This document shows, piece by piece, positions 14,680-25,550 of a stretch of DNA of 32,007 bases. The notes under the pieces were generated by a model. It saw only the letters and a program-made list of their open reading frames with translations. It had not been told where the DNA came from and did no database searches. The position numbers and the translations under genes were made by a program. How positions within the stretch are numbered: the first letter of the stretch is position 1; each line of letters begins with the position of its first letter. The stretch is from Chitinophagales bacterium (lineage in GTDB: Bacteria > Bacteroidota > Bacteroidia > Chitinophagales > CAIODY01), in NCBI GenBank assembly GCA_026461075.1, contig JAPJNH010000008.1:1-32007 (forward strand), read 5' to 3'.

Positions 14680-14756
14680 TATTTGCAAGACGGATTAAAA
14701 TATCTTAAATTTAGGACGTGTTCTATCAGTTCGGTAGGACGCTGTTATTTATTACT

Positions 14757-17700
14757 ATGAAGTATATGCGACGTATAAGTTTATTATTAGTTGGATTGTT
14801 ATTCTTGAGTTTGAAGATTCAGGCACAAACAGCTTGCTTTTCTATTTCAGCTCCAGGAACAGCCTATAATCAAACGCATCAGTGTGTGCCGTTTCAAGCT
14901 ACATTGAATGATTGTAGTACGGGCTCTTATCATCATGCCATTTGGACATTATTAGTTGCGACGAATAGCAGCTGCTCTGGTCCATTTGGAACCTGGCAAG
15001 TAGTGGGTCCTTTAGCGCCTGGTACTCCAGCGTCTATGAACGTTAACGCGACAGGTGTTTACAATGTGCGATTAGATTTGTACGATGCTTCGAACAACTT
15101 ATTAGCGACGACTACTCAGAACTGTATTTTCCAAATTTTTCCAAAGCCTTCTATTAGTGCGACGGCGTCTCCGAACCCATTGTGTGGAGGTGGTCTTGTG
15201 AATTTTACACCAAGCGTAAGTGGTGGAACAGGGCCGAATGCCAATTGCGGATGGACTTATCAATGGAATTTTGGAGGAGGAAACCCGAGCACCTTTAATG
15301 GCTTAAATCCGCCACCGGTTAACTACTCTTGTCGTACAGCCCCTTACAGTGTGGTGTTCATTGCAACGGATTGTAATGGTTGTAATGATGTGTATGTGAA
15401 CGCGGCTGCTGTAACAGCGCCTTGTAAGCCGAACGCCTCTTATTTAGTTACTGCAGGAAGTACGTGTAGTGCACCTGCGAATTTAACGTTTGCAGCTAGT
15501 CCTGTAGGTCCAAATTACAGTTATGGTTGGTGGTTTCCAAGTACATTGCCTACAACAGGAGGTGCTACACAAACAGGTGTAAGTATCAATCATAATTTCC
15601 CTGCATTAGGTTGTTATAATATCCAGATGGCCGTGAAAGATAATACTACAGGCTGTTCGGATACTGTTTCTACGCCGAATGCTATTTGTATTGATGGATT
15701 TTCTGTTACCTCGATGACTTCCAATCAGACTAGTATCTGTAGTGGTCAATCGGTATGTTGTACCTTACATATTGTGACGACTTCGGGTGCGAATATGTCT
15801 ACTGCATTTTTCTCTGGAACGGCAACCCCTACCACAGCTGGAATCCCTACCACAGCTACGTTTAATTATATTGGTAATGGAGATTATGTAGGCTGTTTTA
15901 ATTTGGGTGCGAGTGCTAATACATTGACGTATACTATTTCAATTGGGACTATCACGAATACGCAAAACAACTGTACGATAACTTATTCAGGAACAAAATC
16001 AGTTGCTGTAAAACCGGCACCCGTCGCCAACATAAATATGCAAGCGCCATATGTCGATAATTATTGTGCGCCTTCGCATCAATTTTGTTTTACAGCATCT
16101 CAACCGGGGGTAAATGCCGGAGCGACCTACGACTGGTATTTAACAGCGGGTTATAACCCTTCCGTAGGATCTAGTCCGAGCTCATATTGTAATACATTTA
16201 ACGGTGTTGGCCAGCACAACATTTATCTGAAAGTTTGTATCAATAGTGCAGCGGGATTATGTTGTTCGTTTGATATGGATACGGTTTATTTACAGAAGCC
16301 TAATTTTAATTTCGTTGGAGATACATTAAATACTTGTGCTCCTTTTAATACGCATTTTATTGCATCGCCGTATAACGCCTCGAGTGATTCAATTTACAAA
16401 TGGTATCCTACAGGTTATCCAGCTCCTCCTGGCGCTGGTCCGTTTATAACCACCACCAATACGTTTACCTATACTTACAGTTCTCCATTAGATACTTGTT
16501 ATAGCGTGACATGTATTTTGGTAAAGAAGGCTGCAGGCAGTCCGGCTTACGCTTGTACGGATACGATTACAAAAAAGAATTATATAAAGGTTGGCCATAA
16601 AGTAACGCCTGTTGTAAATATTTTCCCTAACAACGTTTGTTTGGTTAAGAAGAGTGCTTGTGTGCAGTTGAATACAATTGTACCTGGTTATTCTTTGCCT
16701 ATACCAGCGGGTAAGTGTCCGACGCCTTTGTGTGATTGGTATTTTACTCGACCGGGAAGCAAGGCTGCGATTTTACACAATTATAATTGTGATTCGCCAA
16801 AGGTTTGTTTTTCAGATACCGGATATTATAATGCTCACTATCGCGTTTGTATAGGTAATTGTTGCGATACTGTGCATGTGGATTCTGCTATTGTTGTTTC
16901 GGGCATCATTGCTGATTTCTTAGATTCTACCCACTGTACCTCTGCAGGAACTTTGAATGCCGGAAACCCTACCGTAACGTTCAAGACGAAATATAAAATT
17001 TTCCCTCGTCCGACTTCTGGTAAAGTATATACGCAGTTAGTGATCAATGGCGTACCAAATCCGCTTACCGGAACATCGCCATATATTATTTATGATTCAT
17101 TAGATTATGGAACCCCGGGCAATCCTTTGACGCCAAGCTTTAAGCGATATACGGTCAATGCTTTTCCTCAAACAGGGTCTTATAATGTCTGTTATATTGT
17201 TAGTTATCCTCAGAGCGGTTGTCCACCTGACACTACTTGCAAGACGATTCAGCTTGTTCCTTTGACTGCTGTAATCCGTTTGGTGGGGCAGAATAAAACG
17301 ACCTGGAATCAATGCAAAGCAGCTACGTGGACATTCTCCTCTGCGGGATGTAGTCCGCAAAATCCTGCTGTTGTACAATGGATATTTAGTGATTCTCCGA
17401 ATGTGATTCATACGTATACGAATCCAACAGATACTTTAATTCCGCACACCTTTAAGAGTTGTGGTTACGTATGGGCGAAGTTGCGTATTTCTAATGCTTC
17501 CGGATCATGTAAAGATTCAGCGATTATTTCAGGATTGCAGGTTGTCGACTATACACCAAAATTTGTTTTAAAGCCAGTTAGTTCTAGTTGTAACACTTGT
17601 TTTTGGTTAGTGAATAATAGCACCTATTGTAATACTGGATTTGATAGTGTTTCTATCAACTGGAATTATTATAAACCGGGGGGTGAGATGATGTATTTAT

Positions 17701-20700
17701 CTAACGACTTCGACTCGGTGTATTATTGTGTAAATAATGTTCCTTATGGAGGAAGTTCTTCTGTTGTAGTTAACTTGGTTGATACCGTTGCTGGCTGTAT
17801 GAAGCAACAACAGTTTTTTTATTTTGCTTCGGGTGTTGTGGCAGATTTTAATATATCTACAGATACTGTAGTGTGTTCGGGTGCGAATGTGAGCTTCTTT
17901 AGTACGACTAAAGGATCACCTGATCCATCTCAATATGTTTGGAATATCAATAACGGTCCGTGTACAGGAGCGAAGACGGGTACTCAAGCTGCCAGCTCTA
18001 ATCCTAATTTCGCGAGCGGGGTTTCTGCTATTAGCAATACCTTCACTTCTCAGGGATACTATAATGTGACACTATATGCGAAAAATCCTGCGGGTTCTTG
18101 TTTTGATTCGATTTGTAAAACGATTCGTGTGCAAGATCCTGTTGCTTGTTTTACTTGGAAAAGAGACACATTAACGTGTCCTGGTTTGGATACTTTGTAC
18201 AATTGTAGTTATGGTGCGGGCGACTCCTTGATTGTTACATTCAAAACAAATAATGCAGCGGGTTCTGGCTTACCGTTCACTTATACTTCTTCCTTTTCGA
18301 AGCCTTTCCCTAAGAAAATCATTATCCCTGCGAAACTTCCTGGTGTATATGATGTATGTATGGAGTTGAGAAATAATTCAGTGGGATGTATGGACTCGAT
18401 GTGTAGAACCTTAACGGTAATGGGTCCGATAGGTTATGTAACATCGATACAGAACAGAGTAGTTTGTGCCGGTGACCCATCTCCTATCTGTTGGTACACG
18501 AATTCATTCACGCGACCGAATGTTATTTATTGCGATTCGCTTCCAATTTCTGTTCCGTATAGTTCAACTAATTCGTATTGTATCACCCACACGTTCAGAT
18601 ACCCAGGCTATTGTAAAAATCAGATTTGGATTCAGGATTCTGCAGGATGTTCGTATCCATTATCAGACACTGTGATTGTAGATAAACCTTTAGGAGGCTT
18701 CACTTGGTCGATCAATGGTAAGCCTGGTGTGAATGGTGCGTATTGCGGACCTATCACTATTTCTTTTGCAGATACATCTAAAAAGACGGTTTATAATTTA
18801 GATCCGTTAAGTTATAAATGGACCTTCTACCATGCGAATGGAACGGTGATTAGTACGTCTACACAGGTAAATCCTTCTGTCGTATTCTTCCCTCCAGACA
18901 CTATTAGCGCACGATTAATATTATCCTCACTCTATGGTTGTAAGGATACTGTTTATCAAAGCAATATCGCACGTTTATATTCGTTCCCAATCGCTGCTTT
19001 CCAAGCGACCGCAGATACGGTGTGTCGTAACGCTTGTGTAAACTTTACCAATACTTCTCTAAACTTGGATCCTGTCCAGCTTTATACATGGCATTATAAT
19101 TGGCCATCTTTATCGCCAGTAGATCATAATACGAATGGTTCTCAATGTTATAATACTGCAGGTAATTTTACAGCGGTATTAATTGATAGCTCAGTGAATG
19201 GCTGTGTGGATACAAGTACTACTCGTGTAGTGACAGCTCTTCCTGATTTGGTTGCTGCGTTTACTATCGCGAATGATACCTTATGTGGTGCTTCTGCAAC
19301 AGCTATATTTAATGATGCTTCTACGCCAACAAGCGGATTGTCTTATTGCTGGAATTTTGGTGATTTGTACGATGCAAATGGTAACCTTGATCCAAATACT
19401 TGTCAGTCTACCTTGGTGAATCCTACGCATGCTTATATTTTGAATCCTGCGAATGGAGCAGGCAACCAGTTTAATGTAAAATTGGTCGTAACTAGTCGAT
19501 ATGGTTGTATGGATTCTATCATGCACGACGTTTGGTTATTTGCAAATCCTGTTGCTCAATTGAGCTCTTCGCCATTAGTGGCTTGTGATCCGATGTTGAC
19601 GAATTTCATAGACTTATCCTCTTCGGTAAATCCGATTGCTAATTATCATTTGGTGTATGGTGATGGTAAGCCTGATTATAGCAGTCCAAATGCTATTGGC
19701 GGTGTGACTGGTCAGCATACATATAGCCCTGCAGGGTCTTATACAGCAAGTTATACCGTAACGACGATTCAGGGATGTTCAACTTCATCAACTTTGAATT
19801 TCACTGTTAATCCAAATCCGGTAGCATGTGCTGGTAATCAGGATACGATTTGTGCTGGAGATATCATCGCATTAGGCTGTATGCCGGTGCCAAATATTCA
19901 ATATAATTGGTTTAACCCTGGTGGTCCGATTTATACGCCGAATAACACAGTTGCACAACCAACGGTACATCCCTTCTTGTCAACTACTTATCAGTTGGCG
20001 GTAGTTAATCAGTTTGGCTGTTCGGATACCGATGACGTATTTATCTATGTATGGCCTTTGGTTTCTGTTACTGCAGGGCCAGATTCGAATGTATGTTATG
20101 GACAACCTATCACCTTGTGGGCTACGAATGTTGGTCCGATTATCGGTCCATTCCAATGGCATTCTTCACGCTATGATGTGGTGGCGAATACGCCTACATT
20201 GACAGTGTCTCCATTACATACGGATCTTTATACAGTAGCGGTGAACGGACCATGTAATAGCGATAGTACTTCGGTACAAGTCAATGTGTATATGCCTCCG
20301 CCAGTTACTTTAGAGCCGAGTGCAACGATTGTGGCAGGACAGCCTTATAGCATCCTTTCTGTTGGTAATGGAAATGCAAATTGGTATCCAAATTATATGA
20401 TCACTTGTACTGATTGTGTGAATCCGACGGTATCACCGGAAGTGAATACAACGTATCATGTCATTCTTACAGACATACATGGATGTATCGACTCTGCCAA
20501 GATTACGGTAACGGTATTGTGTGATCGTACGAATGCGGTTTATGTACCGAATGCATTTACACCTTCTAAGCCTGGTTTGAATGATCATTTCTATATTCAA
20601 GGAACCGGTGTGAAAGAGGTTAATTATTTACGTATTTATAATCGTTGGGGTAATTTAGTTTTCAGCAACGAACATTTCCAAATCAATCAAAAAGATTTAG

Positions 20701-20822
20701 GTTGGGATGGTCGATTCGGAGGACATGAACTTAGCTCTGATGTATTTATGTATCAAATGCAAGTTGAATGTGCTAATGGCAACGTGTTTCCGATATCTGG
20801 TAACTTTACATTAATACGCTAA
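14757..20822 (+). CDS. Giant Cys-rich PKD-type surface protein with T9SS type B sorting domain
   Basis: 2,021 residues. The signal peptide (MKYMRRISLLLVGLLFLSLK) ends with a typical QAQ cleavage site, so ATG 14757 is preferred over GTG 14718. The body is a chain of about 90-100-residue PKD/Ig-like beta-sandwich units, shown by recurring starts such as VVADFNISTDTVVC, IAAFQATADTVC and VAAFTIANDTLC, and by closing strands such as GYYNVTLYAKNPAG. The C-terminus (about 1925-2021: VYVPNAFTPSKPGLNDHF, LRIYNRWGNLVF, GWDGRFGG, GNFTLIR) is the gliding-motility-associated C-terminal domain, a type B T9SS signal. In sampled stretches there is about one Cys per 20 residues, suggesting many disulfides. 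Likely a surface adhesin or matrix protein; the ligand is unknown. It lies just upstream of the glycan-export genes. Confidence 0.93.
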   Translation: MKYMRRISLLLVGLLFLSLKIQAQTACFSISAPGTAYNQTHQCVPFQATLNDCSTGSYHHAIWTLLVATNSSCSGPFGTWQVVGPLAPGTPASMNVNATGVYNVRLDLYDASNNLLATTTQNCIFQIFPKPSISATASPNPLCGGGLVNFTPSVSGGTGPNANCGWTYQWNFGGGNPSTFNGLNPPPVNYSCRTAPYSVVFIATDCNGCNDVYVNAAAVTAPCKPNASYLVTAGSTCSAPANLTFAASPVGPNYSYGWWFPSTLPTTGGATQTGVSINHNFPALGCYNIQMAVKDNTTGCSDTVSTPNAICIDGFSVTSMTSNQTSICSGQSVCCTLHIVTTSGANMSTAFFSGTATPTTAGIPTTATFNYIGNGDYVGCFNLGASANTLTYTISIGTITNTQNNCTITYSGTKSVAVKPAPVANINMQAPYVDNYCAPSHQFCFTASQPGVNAGATYDWYLTAGYNPSVGSSPSSYCNTFNGVGQHNIYLKVCINSAAGLCCSFDMDTVYLQKPNFNFVGDTLNTCAPFNTHFIASPYNASSDSIYKWYPTGYPAPPGAGPFITTTNTFTYTYSSPLDTCYSVTCILVKKAAGSPAYACTDTITKKNYIKVGHKVTPVVNIFPNNVCLVKKSACVQLNTIVPGYSLPIPAGKCPTPLCDWYFTRPGSKAAILHNYNCDSPKVCFSDTGYYNAHYRVCIGNCCDTVHVDSAIVVSGIIADFLDSTHCTSAGTLNAGNPTVTFKTKYKIFPRPTSGKVYTQLVINGVPNPLTGTSPYIIYDSLDYGTPGNPLTPSFKRYTVNAFPQTGSYNVCYIVSYPQSGCPPDTTCKTIQLVPLTAVIRLVGQNKTTWNQCKAATWTFSSAGCSPQNPAVVQWIFSDSPNVIHTYTNPTDTLIPHTFKSCGYVWAKLRISNASGSCKDSAIISGLQVVDYTPKFVLKPVSSSCNTCFWLVNNSTYCNTGFDSVSINWNYYKPGGEMMYLSNDFDSVYYCVNNVPYGGSSSVVVNLVDTVAGCMKQQQFFYFASGVVADFNISTDTVVCSGANVSFFSTTKGSPDPSQYVWNINNGPCTGAKTGTQAASSNPNFASGVSAISNTFTSQGYYNVTLYAKNPAGSCFDSICKTIRVQDPVACFTWKRDTLTCPGLDTLYNCSYGAGDSLIVTFKTNNAAGSGLPFTYTSSFSKPFPKKIIIPAKLPGVYDVCMELRNNSVGCMDSMCRTLTVMGPIGYVTSIQNRVVCAGDPSPICWYTNSFTRPNVIYCDSLPISVPYSSTNSYCITHTFRYPGYCKNQIWIQDSAGCSYPLSDTVIVDKPLGGFTWSINGKPGVNGAYCGPITISFADTSKKTVYNLDPLSYKWTFYHANGTVISTSTQVNPSVVFFPPDTISARLILSSLYGCKDTVYQSNIARLYSFPIAAFQATADTVCRNACVNFTNTSLNLDPVQLYTWHYNWPSLSPVDHNTNGSQCYNTAGNFTAVLIDSSVNGCVDTSTTRVVTALPDLVAAFTIANDTLCGASATAIFNDASTPTSGLSYCWNFGDLYDANGNLDPNTCQSTLVNPTHAYILNPANGAGNQFNVKLVVTSRYGCMDSIMHDVWLFANPVAQLSSSPLVACDPMLTNFIDLSSSVNPIANYHLVYGDGKPDYSSPNAIGGVTGQHTYSPAGSYTASYTVTTIQGCSTSSTLNFTVNPNPVACAGNQDTICAGDIIALGCMPVPNIQYNWFNPGGPIYTPNNTVAQPTVHPFLSTTYQLAVVNQFGCSDTDDVFIYVWPLVSVTAGPDSNVCYGQPITLWATNVGPIIGPFQWHSSRYDVVANTPTLTVSPLHTDLYTVAVNGPCNSDSTSVQVNVYMPPPVTLEPSATIVAGQPYSILSVGNGNANWYPNYMITCTDCVNPTVSPEVNTTYHVILTDIHGCIDSAKITVTVLCDRTNAVYVPNAFTPSKPGLNDHFYIQGTGVKEVNYLRIYNRWGNLVFSNEHFQINQKDLGWDGRFGGHELSSDVFMYQMQVECANGNVFPISGNFTLIR

Positions 20823-20838
20823 TCTCCTTTAAATCACG

Positions 20839-20846
20839 TACCTTTG
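20839..20846 (+). promoter_or_regulatory. Putative -7 box (TACCTTTG) before the flippase gene
   Basis: A full match to TAnnTTTG; its last base is also the first base of the terminator stem at 20846. A transcript starting about 7 nt downstream would begin inside the left arm of that stem. Confidence 0.45.
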
Positions 20847-20883
20847 GTTGCTTTTCGAAGTAGAAGAGCAACCGATTTTTTTT
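20846..20883 (+). terminator. Intrinsic terminator of the giant PKD gene
   Basis: GGTTGCTTTTC (20846-20856) pairs with GAAGAGCAACC (20863-20873), 11 bp with a single T-G wobble, over a 6-nt loop. GA and eight T follow (20876-20883). It is a textbook rho-independent terminator 24 bp after the stop at 20822. The T-run ends directly at the ATG of the flippase gene (20884). Confidence 0.85.
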
Positions 20884-22362
20884 ATGTTTAAACGTATTTT
20901 TTCGGATGCTGTAGTATATGGGTCGGCTCGCGTACTTATGATGGGCGTGAGTGTTTTTTTAGTGCCCATTTATAGCCGACATTTTTCTCTCGGAGATTAT
21001 GGTGTGATAGAGACGTTTAATCTATTTATCAATCTCGTTTTACTGATTATTCCTTCAGGAATAGCGCAAAGCATGTTTCGTTTAGTATATACCATTAAAA
21101 CGAAGGAAGAACAAAGCGTTTTCTACTCGACGATTTTGCACTATTATCTAATGCTAGCCCTAGTATTTGCGACTATTGCCATTTTGTTCAGCGGCTTTTT
21201 TACAGATGCCTTAATTCAAGATCGACAGTATCAAAAAATATTTATCGCGGCATCCATGACGATTGTATTTCAGTTGTTGAACAGTTATAATCAAGATTTA
21301 CTTAGATCTCAATTTGAGAAATGGAAATATCTCGTTTTGTCGGTTGGTACAGTGATCTTCTTAGCTTCTGGAGGTATTTATACGGTCCTGGTATTAGGAA
21401 TGGGTGTTAAAGGCTTTTTCTATGTTGCTGCGTTCACGCATTGCCTTTTCTTTTTATTGGGCTTCCTGATCAATTATAAATGGTTTAGTTTAAAGTTTAG
21501 TAAAAAGAATCTCAATGAGCTCATTCGTTTAGGCTTACCCTTTATTCCTGCTGGATTGAGTTTGGCCTTGATGAAGTTTTTAGATCGAATCGTAGTACAA
21601 CGTGTAATGGGCGATGGCCAATTAAGTGGTTTAGACTATCTCGGTCTTTATGCCATGGCAATCAAGGTGAGCGTATTATTTGATATTATCAGCCAGGCAT
21701 TTGCAAGTGCGTGGTTTCCGTGGGCGATGAAGATTGCAACAGAGGAAGATGCAAAGGAGCAATATCGCGGTTTGTTTTTAAAAGTACTTTTAGCATTGAC
21801 CTTTGCCGTATTCTGTTTCACTTTAGTATCCAAAGAGATCTTACATATTTTAGTGGATAGCAAGTTCTGGGCTTGCTTACCTATGATACCAATCTTACTT
21901 TTTGGAACCTTACTGAATACTTCTAATTATGTGATTGGTTCTGGTATTTATGCCTCTGGAAAGACAAAATATATTTCAATACCTCCTATAGTTGGTGGTC
22001 TGGTAAATCTTTTGTTCTGTTGGTTATTCGCTATTTATTTCGGATTAGTTGGCGTGGCATTCAGTGTGGTGATGGGAAGCTTCGCCTATTTGAGCACCTC
22101 TTATTTTATATCGCAAAAACATTACCCGATCAATTATTCTATTGGAAAAGGATTTTTGGTTCTTAGTACCTTAATCGGATTTATGTTCGCGATTCATTGG
22201 GTAGATAGTTTAAGTGTTCAAATAAATTATATTGAATTAGGACTTAAAATAGTCATGCTTTTGGTTGCGGTAGTTTTAGTTTTCCTTTCTAGAGTTTATT
22301 CATTTGGAGAGATAGAAAACGCATTAAATAAATTTGTTTTTTCAAAATTGAAGCGTAAATGA
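20884..22362 (+). CDS. Polysaccharide (Wzx-type) flippase / lipopolysaccharide biosynthesis membrane protein
   Basis: 492 residues with about 12-14 hydrophobic segments; MOP superfamily, flipping undecaprenyl-linked glycans across the inner membrane. N-terminal family pattern: FSDAVVYGSARVLMMGVSVF followed by VPIYSRHFSLGDYGVIE. Further family-like segments include LGLPFIPAGLSLALMKFLDR (about 218-237) and LNTSNYVIGSGIYASGKTKY. A TTG at 20848 would add 12 residues but falls within the terminator stem, so ATG 20884 is preferred. Its TGA overlaps the next ATG (ATGA at 22359), showing translational coupling. It is the first gene of a four-gene glycan group, and the only transporter there. Which glycan it moves is unknown. 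Confidence 0.92.
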   Translation: MFKRIFSDAVVYGSARVLMMGVSVFLVPIYSRHFSLGDYGVIETFNLFINLVLLIIPSGIAQSMFRLVYTIKTKEEQSVFYSTILHYYLMLALVFATIAILFSGFFTDALIQDRQYQKIFIAASMTIVFQLLNSYNQDLLRSQFEKWKYLVLSVGTVIFLASGGIYTVLVLGMGVKGFFYVAAFTHCLFFLLGFLINYKWFSLKFSKKNLNELIRLGLPFIPAGLSLALMKFLDRIVVQRVMGDGQLSGLDYLGLYAMAIKVSVLFDIISQAFASAWFPWAMKIATEEDAKEQYRGLFLKVLLALTFAVFCFTLVSKEILHILVDSKFWACLPMIPILLFGTLLNTSNYVIGSGIYASGKTKYISIPPIVGGLVNLLFCWLFAIYFGLVGVAFSVVMGSFAYLSTSYFISQKHYPINYSIGKGFLVLSTLIGFMFAIHWVDSLSVQINYIELGLKIVMLLVAVVLVFLSRVYSFGEIENALNKFVFSKLKRK

Positions 22363-23345
22363 TTCTTGTTATTAGCCTTGTATTGCTAGCTTTATTGATT
22401 GCTACTGTTTTCGTAGGAAAACGCTTGTACAATGTATACCACAAAAACTTATTGATACGTTATGCAAACAAGTATGCCCACAAGTGGCATCCAGAGGAGT
22501 TTTCTATTGATGATGCACGACCAACTTTTTATTATGCCGACTTTTCGCCTTGTTTGCATGAGTACTGTTTTAATGAGAAAGGTGAAATTTTATATGAGTT
22601 TGAAACAGGTGAAGTAGCTTATCATCCTTGTATGATTGCGGAGTATGCGATTGTGAATGCGGAGGCCTATTTAAGAACGAATTCTGAGGAGAGCAAAGCT
22701 AAATTTAAAATACATGCAGATTGGTTGCTAAATAACCTAAAAAAGGATGAAAGCGGCGCGGGCGCTTGGTATTATGATTTTAATAATTCGGTTTTACAAA
22801 TGTATTTCTACTCCGGTATTTCACAAGGGGTTGGTATTAGTGCATTAGTTAGAGCCTATATTATTTTCAACGATCAACAATATTTGGATGCTGCCATAAG
22901 TAGTTTTAAATGGATGATTCGACCGTATAGCAATAACGGATGTTTATACGAAGAAGGTGAATGGAAGGGATGGATTGAAGAGGATACCGAAGGATTTCAT
23001 ATTTTGAATGGGCACATTTATGCTGCGATTGGTTTATACGATTTATGGCGCGTTACCAGAGACACCGCTGTTCATCAGCAATTTGAAAATGCATTAAGCG
23101 TATTAAAACAGCAGGTTCATAAATTTGATGTAGAATATTTTTCAAAGTATAGTCAACGTCCTGGCGCTTATTGTAATAACTCCTATCACCTTATTCATGT
23201 GTATCAATTCAATATTTTGCATAAGATAACGAAGGAGTCTTTCTATTTAGATTATGCGAAGCGTTTTGAGAATCAATATTATAGCAAGGGGAAGCGTTTC
23301 CAGTTTTATTTGAAGCTTGTTTCCTTGGCAATACTTAAGCGTTAA
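22359..23345 (+). CDS. D-glucuronyl C5-epimerase-like protein
   Basis: 328 residues. An N-terminal hydrophobic segment (2-19) anchors it in the membrane. The rest matches the C-terminal domain of heparan-type D-glucuronyl C5-epimerases (alpha/alpha barrel): YYSGISQGVGISALVRAY at 151-167, EEDTEGFHILNGHIYAAIGL at 207-226, and a Tyr-rich C-terminal helix set (RPGAYCNNSYHLIHVYQF). In that family the enzyme inverts C5 of glucuronate to give iduronate within a polymer. Bacterial homologues often sit in exopolysaccharide loci and few are characterised, so the exact sugar is uncertain. It overlaps the flippase gene by 4 bp and precedes the methyltransferase by 27 bp. Which side of the membrane it faces is not clear from the anchor alone. 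Confidence 0.82.
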   Translation: MILVISLVLLALLIATVFVGKRLYNVYHKNLLIRYANKYAHKWHPEEFSIDDARPTFYYADFSPCLHEYCFNEKGEILYEFETGEVAYHPCMIAEYAIVNAEAYLRTNSEESKAKFKIHADWLLNNLKKDESGAGAWYYDFNNSVLQMYFYSGISQGVGISALVRAYIIFNDQQYLDAAISSFKWMIRPYSNNGCLYEEGEWKGWIEEDTEGFHILNGHIYAAIGLYDLWRVTRDTAVHQQFENALSVLKQQVHKFDVEYFSKYSQRPGAYCNNSYHLIHVYQFNILHKITKESFYLDYAKRFENQYYSKGKRFQFYLKLVSLAILKR

Positions 23346-23372
23346 TTCGTTTTTATTTTCTAATTTAGTAGT

Positions 23373-24320
23373 ATGTCAACCCAAGCTGAAAATATTGAGT
23401 TCGTGCCCTGTAATTTGTGTGGCGCTAGTTCTTCAACAACTTACTACAAAGATGGAAAATGGTCGATTGTAAAATGCGATGTTTGTCAACATACGTATAC
23501 CAATCCTCGTCCAACAGCGAGCGCCTTACCTTCTTATTATACAGAGGATTATTTTCAGGATGAACGTCATAAAAAGAAATTTTATCACGTGGATGGCAGT
23601 CCGAAAGCAGTAGCAGATAGTTATTTGAATCGTGTAGCGGATGTAGAGAACTTTTGTGAAGCGAGAGGTCGCGTTCTAGAATTGGGTGCTGCTAGAGGTG
23701 CCTTTCTAAAAGTTTTGCAGGATAGAGGTTGGGAGGTACATGGAGTGGAAATATCTGCCGATGCCGTAGCCTTGGCGAAAACGCAGAATAATTTACAAAT
23801 ACACTGCGGTGTTTTAGAAGATTATCAAAGCGATTTGAAATTTGATGTGGTGTGTATGTATCAAACGCTCGAGCATGTCTTAACACCGGATTATGTTTGT
23901 AGAAGATCTGCTGAGTTATTGAAGCAAGGCGGAAAGTTGATTATCGAAGTTCCGAATAGAAATTGTTTTGAAATGAAGTGGAGCAAGCGCCGACGAGTCC
24001 TTAGCTACGACCTTCCTCGTCATATAAGCCACTTCTCTCCGGATATTCTTGCGAAGCATTTGAAAGGAGTAGGATTTTCTAAGGTGCATATTTACTATTA
24101 TCCTGATAAGTATGTTTTAGGCGTTTTCAATTTCATTGGAAGAATGATTAATCTTGTTCGTCCTAGTGCTCCGGCACAGGCAGCAAACGCGCAAACAGGC
24201 ACTGCAACGGCTAAGCAAATCCCGATGGCACGAATTTCTAGTGGAATCATGCATCGTGCTGTACAAAGAATTAGTTCCTTTATTCCTGGATGGCGTTTTA
24301 CTATAATCGCTGTTAAATAA
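23373..24320 (+). CDS. SAM-dependent methyltransferase with N-terminal zinc-ribbon motif
   Basis: 315 residues. An N-terminal four-Cys cluster, C13-N-L-C16 and C35-D-V-C38, probably binds zinc, as in sugar methyltransferases that carry a similar ribbon. Class I Rossmann methyltransferase motif I is VLELGAARGAF (101-111), followed by VHGVEIS (122-128), then FDVVCMYQTLEHVLTPDYV (motif IV region). The C-terminal third is extended, with an Ala/Thr/Gln-rich linker near 268-283 and a final basic/hydrophobic region (ISSFIPGWRFTIIAVK). It likely methylates a sugar or glycolipid intermediate, given flippase, epimerase and glycosyltransferase neighbours; acceptor and position are unknown. The next gene starts 2 bp after its stop. 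Confidence 0.9.
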   Translation: MSTQAENIEFVPCNLCGASSSTTYYKDGKWSIVKCDVCQHTYTNPRPTASALPSYYTEDYFQDERHKKKFYHVDGSPKAVADSYLNRVADVENFCEARGRVLELGAARGAFLKVLQDRGWEVHGVEISADAVALAKTQNNLQIHCGVLEDYQSDLKFDVVCMYQTLEHVLTPDYVCRRSAELLKQGGKLIIEVPNRNCFEMKWSKRRRVLSYDLPRHISHFSPDILAKHLKGVGFSKVHIYYYPDKYVLGVFNFIGRMINLVRPSAPAQAANAQTGTATAKQIPMARISSGIMHRAVQRISSFIPGWRFTIIAVK

Positions 24321-24322
24321 AA

Positions 24323-25540
24323 ATGAGTCGGCAACTATTGACATTATGGCTTTTGATAAATTTGCAGCTCGCATTTTTAATAACTGCGTTACTGAAAATT
24401 TATTTCAAGCTCTTTCCCGTACGCAAAAGAGTTGCCAATACTCTTCTCATATTAGAGTCTTTACCTATTGAAAATGCTGGCTATCAATATCGCGCTGCCA
24501 AATGGATTCCGCACTTCGCAACGCAAAAATGGCAACTAGATATTTGGACAATCATAGCGTCTCGTAAATCCTACGATTATCTCACACAGCCCGAAAATAT
24601 TTCACGTTATCTTATCCATACAATGTGGCTACGACTCCGTCAGATAGTCGCTTCTAGGCACTATAGCTGTGTTATCGTTCGAAGAGAATTATTGCAATAT
24701 AACGACTATGGCAAATGCTTTATGGAGCAATTATTAAGTGTAATTCATCCTACTGTCATATTGGATATCGATGATAATATAGCTGAGGCCAAGCGTGAGC
24801 CACGTGCCATACAATCGTGGTTTGGTAAAGTAAATCGTGAAGATGGAAGTAAGTTTATGAATAGCCTCTCTTACTATCATTCTTTCATCGTTGGCACACC
24901 GCACTTAAAGAGTTATGTGCAGAGCTTATATCCTAGTAAGGCGGATAACAACTTTTGCTTTATTCCTACTTGCGTAGATTATGATATTCACCCACCACGA
25001 ACGTATAATCAGGAGACATCTAAGATTATTTTTGGTTGGATCGGTGGCGTCGGCAACCTTGCCTATTTGGATTTTGTCATTCCTGCCTTGAATGAAATTG
25101 CAAATGGAAACGCTATAGAATTACAAATACTTTCGGGCGCAGATTTTGTTCCAAAAACAACTGCAATCTTTCCAATCATCAATTTGAAATGGAGCTTGGA
25201 TAATGAAGTAGACTATATCAAGTCGTGGGATATTGGACTTATGCCATTGCCTCAAAGTAAGCTGGCTAACGGCAAGTCGGGCTTTAAGCTGTTGCAATAT
25301 ATGGGACTAGGATTAGTATCGGTGGCGAATGATGTGGGTATTAATGGCGAGATCGTTCAATCAGGAAGCAATGGTTTCTTGGTGACGGAACATGCCACGT
25401 GGTACGAAGTGCTAAAAGAGGTTTTAGCAAAAAAAGCAGATTGGCCTTCGTTAGGTAAGGCGGCACGCAAAAGCATAGAAGAGAAATATACCTTCCATGC
25501 AAACGCACAGAAGTATATTCAATTCATCTCTTCTCGATAG
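24323..25540 (+). CDS. GT4-like family glycosyltransferase
   Basis: 405 residues. An N-terminal hydrophobic segment (about 5-30, LLTLWLLINLQLAFLITALL) suggests membrane association. The C-terminal half is the GT-B nucleotide-sugar domain of GT4-like enzymes: IIFGWIGGVGNLAYLDF (near 235), WDIGLMPLPQSKLANGKSGF (near 310-330), then LLQYMGLGLVSVAND and GEIVQSGSNGFLV. The usual E(x7)E motif is relaxed: K-S-G-F-K-L-L-Q-Y-M replaces the first Glu region, as in the Glyco_trans_1_2-type subgroup. The N-terminal half is diverged. It is last in the flippase/epimerase/methyltransferase group, 2 bp after the methyltransferase. Donor and acceptor are not predictable. It converges on the T9SS protein gene with 10 bp between stops. 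Confidence 0.9.
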   Translation: MSRQLLTLWLLINLQLAFLITALLKIYFKLFPVRKRVANTLLILESLPIENAGYQYRAAKWIPHFATQKWQLDIWTIIASRKSYDYLTQPENISRYLIHTMWLRLRQIVASRHYSCVIVRRELLQYNDYGKCFMEQLLSVIHPTVILDIDDNIAEAKREPRAIQSWFGKVNREDGSKFMNSLSYYHSFIVGTPHLKSYVQSLYPSKADNNFCFIPTCVDYDIHPPRTYNQETSKIIFGWIGGVGNLAYLDFVIPALNEIANGNAIELQILSGADFVPKTTAIFPIINLKWSLDNEVDYIKSWDIGLMPLPQSKLANGKSGFKLLQYMGLGLVSVANDVGINGEIVQSGSNGFLVTEHATWYEVLKEVLAKKADWPSLGKAARKSIEEKYTFHANAQKYIQFISSR

Positions 25541-25550
25541 GTACTCGATT

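Follow-up and report, generated by a model that had tools for sequence, protein, structure and literature searches.

The gene at 22359-23345 of the window, by which is meant the whole 32,007-nucleotide stretch of Chitinophagales DNA analysed here, encodes what its sequence indicates to be a real and probably active relative of the uronyl C5-epimerases. Its fold and chemistry are known, and its compact form and its operon are unusual. We lean, with confidence a little better than even, towards a membrane-anchored uronyl C5-epimerase that consists of the catalytic alpha domain of glucuronyl C5-epimerase (GLCE) alone and would edit a lipid-linked oligosaccharide before its export by a flippase.

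The open reading frame lies on the plus strand and encodes 328 residues, with exactly the coordinates given by a first-pass annotation of this DNA, in which it was described as carrying C-terminal segments of the GLCE family. The frame is real: both peptides that had been singled out, SGISQGVGISAL and LNGHIYAAIGLYD, are present in the protein. No other open reading frame of at least 100 residues lies inside 22359-23345, and the single minus-strand frame that was translated across it has many stops. The protein belongs to Pfam family PF06662 (C5-epim_C), which matches residues 135-304 with an E-value of 2.6e-32 and 112.3 bits (cut-off 23.3) and is covered from position 5 to position 187 of its 188. 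An NCBIfam scan of the protein gave no match at E 0.1, and a literature search for PF06662 found no paper. The best matches by sequence among solved structures are human and zebrafish GLCE, with E 4.2e-12 for the single sequence and 1.5e-46 for an 18-sequence profile. GLCE is the best match by structure as well, and the earlier assignment to the C5-epimerase family is thus borne out. Identity with GH127 or GH88 was rejected, the similarity being under the Pfam cut-offs.

An AlphaFold2 model was built from an alignment of 18 sequences, drawn from the 22 found in the order, and has a mean pLDDT of 82.3, with poor regions at residues 28-56 and 144-148. GLCE chains take ranks 1-8 in a Foldseek search with the model. 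VIA-align superimposes it on human GLCE (6hzz) with Z 31.2 and an rmsd of 3.0 over 269 residues, model residues 35-318 being aligned with human residues 156-617. The best structure other than GLCE is a GH76 mannanase (Z 17.4 in VIA-align), and GH76 mannanases and 2-epimerases, with Z of 17.4 and lower, were therefore rejected as nearest kin. The model contains helices plus two short strands. Besides the helical catalytic domain, GLCE has further domains that include an N-terminal beta-hairpin, used for dimerisation, and a beta-sandwich (PMC13308652). The alpha-helical catalytic fold is present in the model, and both beta domains are absent from the 328-residue protein. As only 269 residues align, and these to human residues 156-617, the protein is modelled as corresponding to the helical catalytic portion of GLCE and as lacking the beta-hairpin and beta-sandwich domains.

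The catalytic residues can be placed by profile alignment to 6hzz together with the family alignment; the chain position in 6hzz plus 90 gives the human GLCE number, in agreement with the end of the structural alignment at 617. Glu499, Asn510, Tyr560 and Tyr578 of GLCE correspond to E208, N217, Y264 and Y276. In GLCE, Tyr578 is the base and Glu499 the acid (PMC12834895), and Tyr500 is also among the key residues listed (PMC13308652). The family alignment holds 35 sequences, all picked by their PF06662 match: the 22359-23345 protein, 21 homologues from the order and 13 from the phylum. E208 and Y276 are invariant in all 35. The N217 column has Asn in 27 sequences and Asp in eight, and the Y264 column has Tyr in 31, Phe in three and His in one. 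The first-pass annotation had proposed that a predicted structure be set against GLCE and the active-site Tyr and Glu compared; with Z 31.2 to GLCE and the pair found as Y276 and E208, the comparison came out in its favour.

The neighbourhood of the catalytic Glu is different. Asp209 stands where GLCE has Tyr500, and the homologue in a congener, genome G001, likewise has Asp; over the 35 sequences the position following the Glu holds Tyr in 27, Asp, Leu and Ile in two each, and Gly and Ala in one each. The loop from the Glu to the Asn or Asp has 8 residues, compared with 10 in GLCE, 10 to 12 in 32 of the 35 sequences and 6 in one. In a tree the protein and its G001 homologue form their own deep branch (support 100/99, stem 0.93). 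The replaced Tyr500 and the shortened loop, read from the alignment, count against the reading we lean towards, and they are what a distinctly unlikely alternative would build on, namely that the protein is a relative in fold that has become a lyase, a binding protein or an inactive tailoring factor. That alternative could also point to the 40% identity of the epimerase between the congeners, compared with 46-64% for five other genes. It is opposed by the Glu, the Asn and both Tyr, the equivalents of E208, N217, Y264 and Y276, which are kept in both congeners, and by the Glu/Tyr pair found in 35 of 35 sequences. Most probably the protein has the ordinary chemistry of its family, and it is the active-site loop that is out of the ordinary. 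To judge from the analysis it would work as GLCE does; the label of a heparan-type GLCE, which the first-pass annotation had used, was too strong and is withheld, because the protein lacks both beta domains of GLCE and has Tyr500 replaced.

The gene is the second of four in an operon that is followed by a gene on the other strand. The features of the region are as follows:

14718..20822, plus strand: neighbour outside the cassette, a PKD-repeat protein of 2034 residues with a CHU_C type IX secretion signal domain.
20824..25549, plus strand: the cassette segment, which has no counterpart in sister genome G002 (59 bp there).
20844..20875, plus strand: terminator-like element, a 13-bp hairpin and then a U-tract running into the flippase ATG.
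20884..22362, plus strand: Wzx-type flippase (Polysacc_synt, PF01943, 38.5 bits, cut-off 28.2).
22359..23345, plus strand: C5-epim_C protein of 328 residues, with an N-terminal hydrophobic anchor (about residues 1-19) and then an alpha/alpha catalytic domain.
23373..24320, plus strand: SAM-dependent methyltransferase (Methyltransf_23, PF13489), missing from the operon of the congener.
24323..25540, plus strand: group 1 glycosyltransferase (PF13692, 29.6 bits, cut-off 27).

We placed the start of the flippase at the ATG from which onwards it resembles its counterpart in the congener; in the listed open reading frame the start is a TTG at 20848. The end of the flippase overlaps the ATG of the epimerase by 4 bp (the corresponding gap in G001 is 1 bp), and the epimerase is followed by gaps of 27 bp to the methyltransferase and 2 bp from there to the glycosyltransferase. 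The neighbours are those that had been named at first pass, and the context of glycan export is supported by an operon that contains a flippase. The place of the methyltransferase in the group proved unstable, as G001 has flippase, epimerase and glycosyltransferase without it.

Two features beside the operon may be described here. The U-tract of the hairpin runs directly into the flippase ATG in both genomes that carry the cassette, and the hairpin found at this place in G001 has, as judged by eye, different stem bases. The two hairpins (window 20838-20885; L039 4088-4130, minus strand) have energies of -19.1 and -20.1 kcal/mol, with z of -6.2 and -5.3. The empty site of G002 also has a terminator-like hairpin (-22.7, z -6.6). 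The element may just terminate the transcript of the giant PKD gene, or it may control whether transcription reads through into the cassette; the idea of a NusG-paralogue antiterminator working at this site was rejected, since there is just one NusG match in the genome. The giant protein (14718-20822) contains 32 motifs of the form D-[ST]-[AILMVT], compared with 6.5 in shuffled sequences. This motif is the O-glycosylation sequon of Bacteroidota (PMC12871550). Four orthologues have 29-39 such motifs whether or not the cassette is present, and the PKD repeat patterns may account for part of the excess. A link between the cassette and this excess was rejected because the cassette-less sister G002 has an equal one (31 compared with 32).

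The N-terminal membrane anchor that had been proposed is present at about residues 1-19. No Lys or Arg precedes it, and the next 20 residues hold five Lys or Arg and no Asp or Glu; the 20 residues after the anchor of the G001 homologue hold four and none. By the positive-inside rule, the positive charges after the anchor predict that the catalytic domain is on the cytoplasmic side. As most of the other 33 homologues have no such N-terminal segment or a different charge pattern, this topology cannot be transferred to the family. Taken together, the predicted cytoplasmic domain and the flippase in the operon make it more likely that the enzyme acts on a lipid-linked oligosaccharide that has yet to be exported. 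Of the first-pass proposal of a lipid-linked or exported chain, the first part therefore fits and the second does not, the charges predicting action before export.

AlgG acts on alginate in the periplasm. A C5-epimerase working in the same manner on an exported or polymerised glycan is an unlikely alternative here, though one with some footing, for the membrane anchor by itself is compatible with either side, and GLCE is known to carry out its C5-epimerisation, as a rule, inside a polymer (PMC13308652). It is opposed by the positive charges that follow the anchor in this protein and in its G001 homologue, the two members of the subfamily, and by the coupling of the gene to a flippase in a four-gene operon that contains no polymerase gene. 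That the topology rests on the charge rule counts, in turn, against a cytoplasmic enzyme.

By combining what was observed, that is, the family, the predicted fold, the catalytic Glu/Tyr pair, the operon context and the variable presence among close relatives, it is possible to describe how the anchored enzyme might act. At the inner membrane, on its cytoplasmic face, the substrate would be a short oligosaccharide linked to a lipid. Y276 would abstract the proton from C5 of a uronic acid in this chain, and E208 would re-protonate the opposite face, turning the D-gluco into the L-ido configuration. The flippase of the operon would then export the edited oligosaccharide, which in the window species is perhaps also methylated.

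The cassette is present in some close genomes and missing from others. Sister genome G002 has 85-98% identity to the window genome over the ten flanking genes compared, and there the giant gene lies directly beside a 1361-residue gene, with 59 bp between them compared with about 4.7 kb in the window; a PF06662 search of G002 at E 0.001 gave no match. The G+C content of the cassette segment is 0.380, compared with 0.421 for the adjoining 10 kb on the left. The congener G001 has rpoN, purD, the giant protein, the flippase, the epimerase and the glycosyltransferase in the order of the window, minus the methyltransferase. The identities to the window genome are 64% for purD, 63% for rpoN, 59% for the giant protein and for the flippase, 46% for the glycosyltransferase and 40% for the epimerase, which is the least conserved of the six locus genes compared. 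As the site and order are the same and the divergence of the flippase is near that of the flanks, inheritance of the cassette from an ancestor of the genus and its loss in G002 fit the data; two separate gains are less likely. A contig search with the single protein gave no match, and with an alignment of the two sequences it gave one record, G001-like in content.

Different genes follow the giant gene in G003 and G004, which represent the family's other genus. In G014, from another family, relatives of the flippase, methyltransferase and glycosyltransferase stand in order (L128 465-3979; 25, 41 and 45% identity), with no space for an epimerase between the first two. The run is thus flippase-epimerase-methyltransferase-glycosyltransferase in the window, flippase-epimerase-glycosyltransferase in G001 and flippase-methyltransferase-glycosyltransferase in G014. 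Because the runs of G001 and G014 differ in them, the epimerase and the methyltransferase look like exchangeable tailoring modules.

The first-pass annotation had hinted at a glycan containing uronic acid, and nucleotide-sugar dehydrogenases encoded elsewhere in the genome could indeed provide uronic acids. A TuaD-like enzyme scores 551 bits and a TviB-like (UDP-GlcNAc 6-dehydrogenase-like) enzyme 503 bits; these are under the curated equivalog cut-offs of 700 and 592, and both exceed the general TIGR03026 cut-off. A Bac_transf sugar transferase is encoded about 1.5 kb from the TuaD-like gene, on the opposite strand, and the two are separated by ftsY and a phosphatase; a Polysacc_synt_2 protein is also near. 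Orthologues of it occur in five of the six genomes of the family, G002 among them (96%). G002 has in addition a 42-residue fragment (G002:C7:111556-111681) that is 100% identical to the end of the TuaD-like dehydrogenase of the window genome and is a partial duplicate, a transfer or an assembly fault.

No UDP-glucose dehydrogenase orthologue was found in the epimerase carrier G001, a genome that is 89% complete. That the TuaD-like gene is missing there speaks against a shared glucuronate substrate, though less strongly given that completeness, and it counts, with the scores under the equivalog cut-offs, against the editing enzyme that we favour. The TviB-like protein is present in both carriers, with 84% identity between them. 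Together with the missing orthologue and an active-site loop unlike GLCE at Tyr500, it would suit a C5-epimerase of a 2-acetamido-uronic acid, e.g. GlcNAcA, and not of glucuronate. We nevertheless consider this substrate improbable. The TviB-like protein is also found in G003 (80%), which is without the epimerase and the cassette, so it does not track the epimerase; moreover, G001 is just 89% complete, and the substrates of the dehydrogenases are inferred from scores below the equivalog cut-offs. A bolder and more doubtful proposal joins these elements: in a modular cassette of flippase, tailoring enzymes and glycosyltransferase, a pared-down GLCE domain with a re-made loop might invert C5 of a non-glucuronate uronate, such as an N-acetyl-uronate, on a lipid-linked oligosaccharide, giving an L-configured uronate in a surface or protein-linked glycan of Bacteroidota. 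The passages of the literature cited here describe no Bacteroidota glycan of this kind.

Strong PF06662 matches occur in 22 of 396 genomes of the order (E at most 1.8e-23) and in 14 of 395 genomes of the phylum (E 1e-10), the window genome being included in each count. The first-pass remark that such a glycan is uncommon in bacteria has to be altered as regards the enzyme family, which in this phylum is patchily distributed and not rare. Looser counts in the order are 58 of 396 at E 0.001 and 39 of 396 over the curated cut-off. Matches beyond the 22 (E 1.1e-7 to 0.001, in frames of 201 to 811 residues) were dropped, and these weak matches are probably other alpha/alpha-barrel proteins. Of the 21 homologues in the order outside the window, 12 were judged by their neighbours (24 of 68 listed neighbours scanned) and the G001 locus was read fully; one contig (L043) was too short, and seven were left out. 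A glycosyltransferase adjoins the homologue in five of the 12 loci, in three of them along with an asparagine-synthase-like protein. In the other seven none adjoins, which counts against the favoured role in oligosaccharide editing; all seven come from one clade of nine, and they have a hydrophobic segment near the C-terminus. An MbnP-family gene adjoins the C5-epim_C gene at two loci of that clade (L046 8514-9221 and L048 9884-10594), which hints at a different role for it.

As a compact bacterial form with a single domain and a link to a flippase, the protein could serve as a small model enzyme for the family, and it would show if Tyr500 is dispensable or sets the substrate. The window genome and G002 form a natural pair of close genomes, with and without the cassette, in which iduronate-type sugars can be sought.

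Several known systems can be compared with this locus. The LFG-type O-glycosylation loci of Bacteroidota, as described in PMC12871550, likewise have a wzx flippase first, then variable genes and a glycosyltransferase last. They start with metG, whereas the operon of the window is preceded by the type IX secreted giant PKD/CHU_C protein, and they end with two glycosyltransferases, whereas the operon has one and then a gene on the opposite strand. With human and zebrafish GLCE (PDB 6hzz and 4pw2) the protein shares the catalytic alpha/alpha domain and the residues E499, N510, Y560 and Y578. It differs from them in having neither the beta-hairpin dimerisation domain nor the beta-sandwich domain, in the change of Tyr500 to Asp, in a loop that is two residues shorter and in an operon with a flippase.

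RED65_08024 of Bermanella marisrubri (Raedts et al. 2013) is reported to act on desulfated heparan sulfate or heparin, and its native glycan is given as unknown in the passages cited (PMC4432689, PMC13308652); the second source calls it the only identified bacterial glucuronyl C5-epimerase. By description, and not by sequence, it resembles the 22359-23345 protein in being a bacterial enzyme of the same chemistry. For Agl32 of Halobacterium salinarum it is reported that a short glycan, still linked to its lipid, undergoes C5-epimerisation and is delivered across the membrane afterwards (PMC13308652). The Agl32 model, as reported there, has none of the GLCE catalytic residues, whereas the 22359-23345 protein has four of the five. 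The two are alike, again by description, in the proposed order of steps, with epimerisation preceding the crossing of the membrane.
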